DNA of 39,087 nucleotides, taken from NCBI GenBank assembly GCA_003251455.1, contig QKFI01000093.1:1-39087 (forward strand). The letters run 5' to 3'. This stretch comes from Tolumonas sp. (GTDB lineage Bacteria; Pseudomonadota; Gammaproteobacteria; Enterobacterales; Aeromonadaceae). The position numbers and the translations under genes are program-made. Below, one piece after another: positions 16,615 through 19,604 of the stretch; position 1 is the stretch's first letter; each line of letters opens with the position of its first letter. Under the pieces are notes generated by a model, which had not been told where the DNA came from, did no database searches, and was given only the letters and a program-made list of their open reading frames with translations.

Positions 16615-16690
16615 TGGCTCCCTCGACTGGACTCGAACCAGTGACATACGGATTAACAGTCCGCCGTTCTACCGACTGAACTACGAGGGA
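16615..16690 (-). tRNA. tRNA-Asn(GTT)
   Basis: 76 bp, encoded CCA, acceptor TCCCTCG/CGAGGGA, anticodon loop CTGTTAA. Confidence 0.97.
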
Positions 16691-16694
16691 AAAG

Positions 16695-16770
16695 TGGCTC
16701 CTCCTGCTGGACTTGAACCAGCGACATACGGATTAACAGTCCGCCGTTCTACCGACTGAACTAAGGAGGA
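16695..16770 (-). tRNA. tRNA-Asn(GTT)
   Basis: 76 bp, encoded CCA, acceptor TCCTCCT/AGGAGGA, anticodon loop CTGTTAA. Confidence 0.97.
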
Positions 16771-16788
16771 ATTAATTTGTCTAGATGA

Positions 16789-16864
16789 TGGCTCCTCCTG
16801 CTGGACTTGAACCAGCGACATACGGATTAACAGTCCGCCGTTCTACCGACTGAACTAAGGAGGA
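16789..16864 (-). tRNA. tRNA-Asn(GTT), identical to the 16695-16770 copy
   Basis: Same 76-bp sequence as preceding copy. Confidence 0.97.
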
Positions 16865-17000
16865 ATCGTTCTCATCTCGACGGGGCGCATGTTACTGATT
16901 GGTCTGGTGACTGTCAACTGATGAAACACCAAAATCAGACCATTTCATATCGTTTGCTGAATTGATAACCAGTTTGTATCAGTTTCAATCAGGGATGAGG

Positions 17001-17290
17001 TTATCAACAGGGAAGTCGATGCCAGTGATATCAAGGCCTGTAGCACGTTACCCACAGAATCTGTGGATAACCATGTGAATTATTTCCTCATATCTTGCTG
17101 AAAGCCGCATGCTGTAAGGATTTGAAAAAAGTATGATGAATATATTGCAAAAAAATATTATATAAAAATCAATAAGATATAAAAAATTGCTGCGAGAAGT
17201 GGTATTTGATATATCAGAAATACAAATTGAAAATAGGTCTACGGAAAATGTGCATTATTTTGGCGCATTCTCTAATGGAGCCGTGGATAA
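17001..17290. promoter_or_regulatory. DnaA-box cluster with AT-rich tract inside tRNA-Asn array
   Basis: TTATCAACA 17001-17009 (+), TTACCCACA 17048-17056 (+), TGTGGATAA 17062-17070 (perfect box, - strand), CGTGGATAA 17282-17290 (- strand); AT-rich 17120-17250. Confidence 0.6.
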
Positions 17291-17322: not shown

Positions 17323-17398
17323 TGGCTCCCCCGACTGGACTCGAACCAGTGACATACGGATTAACAGTCCGCCGTTCTACCGACTGAACTACGGGGGA
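17323..17398 (-). tRNA. tRNA-Asn(GTT)
   Basis: 76 bp, encoded CCA, acceptor TCCCCCG/CGGGGGA, anticodon loop CTGTTAA. Confidence 0.97.
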
Positions 17399-17528
17399 AT
17401 GGGCTGAAAATACTAATGATATTAGTGGTGCGGGTCAAGGCAAAAATAAGAGCTAGATCTCAATTGAGGTAAAAATGAACAAAAAGATTGATCTATAAAC
17501 AAATGAATCCTTGGTTAGATAAAAACTA

Positions 17529-17544
17529 CTGTAAAGGTGTTCAG
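17529..17544. promoter_or_regulatory. Putative LexA (SOS) box upstream of uvrB
   Basis: TA-CTG-TAAAGGTGTT-CAG-TA matches CTG-N10-CAG; 54 bp upstream of the uvrB ATG. Confidence 0.65.
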
Positions 17545-17597
17545 TATCCGAGGGAAGCATTATTATATATGTCTGTTCGGAAGGTTTAGGTCGTACG

Positions 17598-19604
17598 ATG
17601 AGTAAGCAGTTTAAACTGGCAAGTCAGTTTCAGCCGGGTGGGGATCAACCTAGAGCAATTGCACAATTATTGGACGGCATCGAGTCTGGTTTGGCGCATC
17701 AAACATTACTCGGCGTGACTGGTTCGGGGAAAACTTTCACGATGGCGAATGTGATCGCGAAATTAAACCGTCCAACCATGATCCTCGCACCCAATAAAAC
17801 GCTGGCTGCACAACTTTACGGAGAAATGAGGGAATTCTTCCCTGAAAATGCGGTCGAGTACTTTGTTTCTTATTACGATTACTATCAGCCGGAAGCCTAT
17901 GTGCCGACGACAGATACATTTATTGAAAAAGACGCATCTATTAATGATCATATTGAACAAATGCGTTTGTCTGCGACCAAAGCACTACTTGAACGACGAG
18001 ATGTGGTGATCGTCGCTTCTGTTTCTGCAATCTATGGTTTAGGTGATCCGCAATCTTATCTGAGCATGATGTTGCATTTACGTCAGGGCGATATCATCAA
18101 TCAGCGTGACATTTTGCGTCGCCTCGCTGAATTACAATACACCCGAAATGATGCTGCGTTCCAACGTGCAACGTTTCGGGTTCGAGGGGAGGTACTTGAT
18201 ATCTTTCCTGCTGAATCGGACAAACTTGCTCTTCGGGTTGAATTATTCGATGAAGAAGTGGAACGATTAAGTCTGTTTGATCCATTGACGGGGGCGGTCG
18301 AAAAGGTCATTCCCCGGTTTACGATCTTTCCTAAAAGTCACTATGTAACACCCCGCGATACCATTTTACAGGCCATTGAACAGATTAAAGAAGAGCTTGC
18401 CGTTCGTCGTCAGCAGTTTCTGGATGCAAATAAGCTTCTGGAAGAACAACGGATCACGCAACGAACGTTGTTCGATATCGAAATGATGCAGGAACTAGGC
18501 TATTGCTCTGGCATCGAAAACTATTCCCGTTATTTATCCGGTCGTGCTGCGGGCGAACCGCCGCCAACCCTATTCGACTATTTACCTGGCGATGGTCTGC
18601 TGATTATTGATGAATCGCACGTGACCGTACCGCAAATTGGCGGCATGTATAAAGGCGACCGCTCTCGCAAAGAAACGCTGGTTGAATATGGTTTCCGCTT
18701 ACCATCCGCTTTAGACAACCGTCCATTAAAGTTTGATGAGTTTGAATCACTGATGCCACAAACCGTATTTGTTTCAGCAACGCCAGCTGCTTATGAACTT
18801 GAAAAATCGGGTGGCGAGATTGTTGAACAGGTTGTTCGTCCAACAGGCTTGCTTGATCCGGTGGTTGAAGTGAGACCGGTCACCACGCAGGTGGATGATC
18901 TGCTCTCAGAAATTCGCTTACGCGTTAAATCAGATGAACGTGTGCTGGTGACGACGTTAACAAAACGGATGGCTGAGGATTTAACCGAATATCTGCATGA
19001 GCATGACGTGCGTGTACGTTATCTGCATTCGGACATTGATACTGTTGAGCGTATGGAGATCATTCGTGATCTGCGTCTTGGTGAGTTTGATGTTTTAGTC
19101 GGAATCAACTTATTAAGGGAAGGGTTGGACATGCCAGAGGTGTCTCTGGTTGCCATTTTAGATGCAGATAAAGAAGGGTTCTTGCGTTCAACTCGCTCTT
19201 TGATTCAAACCATCGGCCGTGCTGCACGTAACCTGAATGGGAAAGCAATTTTATATGGGGATAAAATTACCGATTCGATGAAGGTTGCGATTGATGAAAC
19301 AAATCGTCGACGGGCAAAACAGCAGGCGTTCAACGAAGAGAATGGCATCACGCCACAAGGCTTGAAGAAAAAGGTTGTGGATGTCATGCAATTGGGAGGT
19401 GTTTCCGGCAGCAATAAATCAGGCAAACTGAGACAAGTTGCTGAACCCGCAGGTAGTTATAAACGACTGCATCCTGATGAAATTGCGAAAGAAATCAAAC
19501 GTCTTGAAAACCAGATGTTTGAACATGCACGTAATCTTGAATTTGAACAAGCCGCAGCTTTACGCGACCAAATTCAGGCGTTACAGCAACAATTGATTTT
19601 TTGA
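17598..19604 (+). CDS. uvrB: Excinuclease ABC subunit B
   Basis: 668 aa; [53 protein letters not shown]-terminal UVR motif. Confidence 0.98.

Follow-up and report, generated by a model that had tools for sequence, protein, structure and literature searches.

A DnaA-box cluster in a tRNA-Asn array

Which kind of DnaA-binding locus lies among the tRNA-Asn genes of contig QKFI01000093.1 from Tolumonas sp.? A preliminary description of the window (the whole stretch of 39,087 nucleotides analysed here) had pointed to four DnaA boxes beside an AT-rich tract and had proposed a datA-type locus or a remnant replicon origin. A box scan of the window confirmed the four boxes within 290 bp, namely TTATCAACA at 17001..17009 (+), TTACCCACA at 17048..17056 (+), TTATCCACA at 17062..17070 (-) and TTATCCACG at 17282..17290 (-); the third has no mismatch and each of the others has one. 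With one mismatch allowed, the window as a whole contained an unremarkable number of boxes (10 observed versus 11.45 expected). As this is the chance level, the count is uninformative and it is the clustering and the arrangement of the boxes that are informative. Four boxes within 290 bp occurred in 0/400 dinucleotide shuffles, and the same result was obtained for two boxes placed head to head with a 5-bp gap and at most one mismatch per box. Such a dyad, also part of the preliminary description, is real and occupies 17048-17070.

The dyad opens an array of three boxes. Box I, TTACCCACA, stands in the same register as box I of E. coli DARS1; the perfect box II, TTATCCACA, faces it head to head at a distance of 5 bp, and box III, TAATTCACA (17074..17082, minus strand), which had been overlooked, is found 3 bp beyond the dyad in the same direction as box II. 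Box III carries two mismatches and is weak in E. coli too. At this stringency the three-box core was absent from all 400 dinucleotide shuffles. DARS (DnaA-reactivating sequences) are defined by three core boxes with a common spacing, box I being opposite to boxes II and III (PMC5742627), and this is the arrangement found here, with gaps of 5 and 3 bp. The uvrB gene (17598..19604, plus strand), which is the syntenic marker of DARS1 and had likewise escaped notice, follows downstream in the same orientation as the core.

The core is flanked by accessory boxes. TTATCAACA is located at -46/-47 and TTATCCACG at +233/234 in 9/9 genus loci compared, and in Aeromonas a similar box, TTATCCACT, is present near the place of the latter. 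A weak DnaA box, TAATGCACA (17249..17257, minus strand), lies within a 19-bp sequence, TGTGCATTATTTTGGCGCA (17249-17267), that is identical in 9/9 genus loci and thus exceeds the length of the box; an NtrC-like reading of this 19-mer, based on comparison by eye, was dropped. In keeping with the preliminary description, the cluster lies among four minus-strand tRNA-Asn genes. Three of them (16615-16690, 16695-16770 and 16789-16864, together 16615..16864), with a promoter-like TTGACA-17-TAACAT at 16917-16889, are neighbours and not parts of the element. The fourth (17323..17398), with a promoter-like TTGACC-17-TAGTAT at 17438-17410, reads towards the core.

Conservation of the boxes, which the preliminary description had proposed as a check, was found within the genus: the exact dyad is present in 8/10 other genus genomes, including each of the seven with a completeness of at least 95%, and the two genomes without it are 63% and 87% complete. 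The named Tolumonas records display the same layout with UvrB proteins 90-94% identical, and the flanks of the T. osonensis locus (L116) match those of genus genome G005. At the level of the order, the core pattern was detected in 98/295 near-complete genomes and a reversed control pattern in none. Most cores in the fetched regions of the order stand 0.37-2.2 kb ahead of uvrB and point the same way; they come from Aeromonadaceae and many further families, that of E. coli among them. tRNA-Asn genes are located to the left of the core in many of these uvrB-linked regions, so that they mark an old DARS1 neighbourhood and are no sign of datA. In the loci examined, the arrangement in which a tRNA-Asn gene points at the IHF motif described below is mainly a feature of Tolumonas and Aeromonas. 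The dyad alone is common, as it was scored in 132/369 genomes in a class-wide search. Two further dyads with 5-bp spacing, both without box III, recur in the genus (three and four loci), one lying ahead of an epimerase-like gene, the other flanked by an aminotransferase-like and an azoreductase-like gene. In one genus genome, an anaerobic ribonucleotide reductase-like frame is closely followed by a DnaA double-box pattern. A DnaA ChIP peak is found upstream of nrdD in E. coli.

An IHF-type motif at a fixed distance from the core

Inspection of the sequence showed that the AT-rich tract noted in the cluster is real. The preliminary description was correct in suggesting an IHF site; the tract holds a motif that it had missed. 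This predicted IHF site, AATCAATAAGATA (17167..17179, plus strand), matches WATCAANNNNTTR at 12/13 positions, lies at +119 as counted from the first base of box I and is preceded by an A-rich tract (17145-17159). In the genus alignment, the AT-rich tract contains AATCAANNNNTTA; the other eight loci match WATCAANNNNTTR perfectly, and the window carries one mismatch. The tRNA-Asn gene at 17323 reads towards the motif, and no terminator-like sequence was found in the region. The gene for the IHF alpha subunit is present in the genome from which the window is taken, and the motif leads us to predict IHF binding at 17167-17179.

The motif (at most one mismatch) was found at +115 to +124 in 34/47 uvrB-linked loci, compared with a mean of 0.65 and a maximum of 4 in other windows, these locus counts and those below being raw, with related genomes included. 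Where present in uvrB-linked loci, it lies 119-122 bp from box I. The sequence logo of these loci displays a nearly invariant CA and TTA with an AT-rich stretch upstream, in line with the CA and TT core elements of IHF sites (PMC10380432); many loci have AAACAA or TTTCAA instead of WATCAA. As a control, dyads without uvrB linkage were analysed in the expectation of few motifs, yet 50/78 of them, many of the 78 being from Marinobacter, carried the motif (other windows: mean 1.5, maximum 16). This rules out that the motif is special to uvrB-linked loci. The motif-bearing unlinked dyads come from Marinobacter, Alcanivorax and Methylobacter and also from beta-proteobacteria, among other groups. 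The spacer between the core and the motif (17083..17166 in the window) also contains conserved columns when uvrB-linked and other DARS-like loci are compared, at +44, +54, +57-58, +70, +74 and +81 from box I in both sets. The sharing of these columns and of the motif by both sets argues for one module, which would be found at uvrB and at other loci in gamma- and beta-proteobacteria. In the unlinked loci L005-L114, drawn chiefly from these three genera and from beta-proteobacteria, the same 23-bp dyad has the motif at about +121, and matches to the Fis consensus are enriched at about +133 to +147.

E. coli DARS1 reads TTTTAACTGGTTA at the same place, with two mismatches and the C of CA lost. 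This degenerate sequence agrees with the finding that IHF is dispensable at E. coli DARS1 (PMC4245941; PMC8407004). By contrast, the motif present at +119 suggests that Tolumonas DARS1 may not be IHF-independent.

Function of the element and alternative readings

Taken together, these data lead us to identify the element as the DARS1 of Tolumonas sp. with a predicted IHF site at a fixed spacing behind the core, a reading to which we give a probability of about 85%; the case for its identity as DARS1 is strong. DARS1-like sequences have been reported in many proteobacteria, according to a passage of PMC10380432 that cites earlier work, and the element thus belongs to a known kind. The literature searched, a set to which the original DARS papers did not belong, contained no mention of an IHF site at a fixed spacing in DARS1, and this motif is probably new here.

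At E. coli DARS, ADP-DnaA bound to the boxes loses its ADP and the resulting apo-DnaA is recharged with ATP (PMC4245941). By orthology, ADP-DnaA would assemble on boxes I-III of the Tolumonas element, where neighbouring DnaA molecules would loosen the ADP; the apo-DnaA released would then take up ATP, making active initiator available for oriC. DnaA binding, nucleotide exchange and recharging of ADP-DnaA at Tolumonas DARS1 are therefore expected from the E. coli system, and the site may contribute to cell-cycle timing. IHF bound at +119 may bend the DNA and promote the assembly of ADP-DnaA, as at E. coli DARS2. Since read-through from the tRNA-Gly genes glyVXY evicts IHF at datA (PMC10950094), read-through from the tRNA-Asn gene at 17323 could, by analogy, do the same here.

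Among the other readings, a transcriptional operator fares best and is nevertheless unlikely. DnaA represses E. coli uvrB at a promoter overlapping DARS1 (PMC6015884), and promoter-like sequences of tRNA genes are close to the Tolumonas core, so that control of uvrB or of the tRNA-Asn genes could be the selected function. However, loci with uvrB at a distance of 1.7-2.2 kb, loci with no tRNA-Asn gene nearby and loci without any linkage to uvrB all keep the same spacing of core and IHF motif. Moreover, uvrB has a LexA-box-like site of its own, TACTGTAAAGGTGTTCAGTA (17527..17546), just upstream of the gene and about 450 bp from the core, with a tRNA gene in between.

The proposal of a datA-type locus was correct in that the cluster is a conserved chromosomal array of DnaA boxes of the E. 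coli regulatory-locus type; the DARS core, uvrB and a distance of 0.350-0.365 of the chromosome from dnaA identify it as DARS1 and not datA. A datA analogue, in which the boxes surround an IHF site close to tRNA genes, would promote hydrolysis of DnaA-ATP or titrate DnaA. The IHF-type motif does have DnaA boxes and tRNA genes as neighbours here, one tRNA gene reading towards the motif as glyVXY does at datA (PMC10950094), but the part that is conserved is the DARS core, without any datA arrangement, and E. coli datA is devoid of such a core and is located near queG rather than uvrB and close to oriC. We regard this reading as very improbable.

Slightly less credible still is the view that the site does nothing but titrate DnaA passively. 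DnaA is bound at DARS loci, which may contribute to its titration (PMC12371093), but conservation extends to the exact spacing of the boxes and to the fixed distance of the IHF motif, neither of which titration requires. Finally, an origin or a remnant replicon, for which the DnaA boxes adjoining an AT-rich tract might have spoken, can practically be set aside, as dnaA is more than 1 Mb away (1.2-1.4 Mb in complete genus genomes), the element is near neither dnaA nor mnmG, the window shows no inflection of GC skew, and the IHF-type motif together with its A-rich flank accounts for the AT-rich tract.

The usual place of DARS2 is the gap between rppH and mutH. This gap is about 0.6-0.7 kb long and contains core-like arrays in E. 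coli, Aeromonas and many members of the order. In 6/6 Tolumonas genomes this gap measures 147-184 bp, and a strand-aware scan detected neither a DARS core nor a DnaA box within it. The same loss was observed in several genomes of another family (f7; five loci), the gap being about 0.1-0.36 kb in the genomes of the genus and of f7 without DARS2, versus about 0.65 kb. No second DARS was found in the genus, the two other conserved dyads having no box III.

These observations lead us to a broader and tentative proposal, whose chances we place somewhat below even. DARS may anciently have been a module of about 135 bp, made of the core, the conserved spacer and an IHF site at +119 to +122, across gamma- and beta-proteobacteria; the IHF-independent DARS1 of E. 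coli would then be a decayed exception, and Tolumonas DARS1, with DARS2 gone from rppH-mutH, would be the main site of IHF-timed DnaA recharging. In E. coli, DARS1 is held to be IHF-independent and DARS2 to be timed by IHF and Fis. If most DARS carry an IHF site, this division of labour would represent a local state of E. coli, and IHF-timed recharging of DnaA an older and widespread design. Tolumonas, whose DARS1 is of the IHF type and whose rppH-mutH gap holds no DARS2, would offer a simple test system, and the fixed spacing between core and IHF motif should make DARS loci findable in genomes without annotated DARS.

Comparison with DARS1, DARS2 and datA of E. coli

E. coli DARS1, located in the bioD-uvrB intergenic region, shares with the Tolumonas element the spacing and orientation of the core boxes and a location ahead of uvrB in the same direction, and its boxes (L121:1608+, 1622- and 1634-) are in the same register. 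Its box III position reads TAATACACA, compared with TAATTCACA in Tolumonas. The E. coli double box formed by boxes II and III, cTAATACACAtggTTATCCACAg, is bound by DnaA in ChIP-seq (PMC11317965), and the corresponding Tolumonas pair, TAATTCACAtggTTATCCACAg, is identical to it at 20/21 bases. The accessory boxes at -47 and +234 and the four surrounding tRNA-Asn genes distinguish the Tolumonas locus. Its distance from dnaA, taken from two complete single-contig genomes of the genus since the genome of the window is a draft, is 0.350 and 0.365 of the chromosome, an intermediate position similar to that of E. coli DARS1 (0.329 from oriC). In Aeromonas and another member of the family, the element is 0.44-0.45 of the chromosome from dnaA (0.454 and thus nearer the terminus in Aeromonas), and the fractional distance of E. 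coli and Tolumonas is thus not kept across the family.

With E. coli DARS2, the Tolumonas element shares the order of a core followed by an IHF site, as predicted from the consensus. The DARS2 site, AGTCAATGCATTA, is at +109 from box I, whereas that of Tolumonas is at +119, about one helical turn further. It should be noted that the DARS2 core used for this comparison, L122:2136, is an assignment of the present analysis, made from the ChIP-seq double box (PMC11317965) and the core-IHF-Fis order; the core-like site nearest mutH, L122:2452, fits both less well and was rejected. The two loci differ in location, DARS2 being at rppH-mutH and the Tolumonas element at uvrB. As for Fis sites after the IHF site, the element in the window has no consensus match, and uvrB-linked loci show no enrichment.

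DnaA boxes, an IHF site and neighbouring tRNA genes are what E. coli datA (glyVXY-queG) has in common with the Tolumonas element. By contrast, datA, in which our scan found no DARS core, is about 0.10 of the chromosome from oriC and inactivates DnaA. As judged from the sequence, the position and core of the Tolumonas element are those of DARS1, and its predicted IHF site makes it resemble DARS2. DARS1 activates DnaA and is in this respect the opposite of datA.
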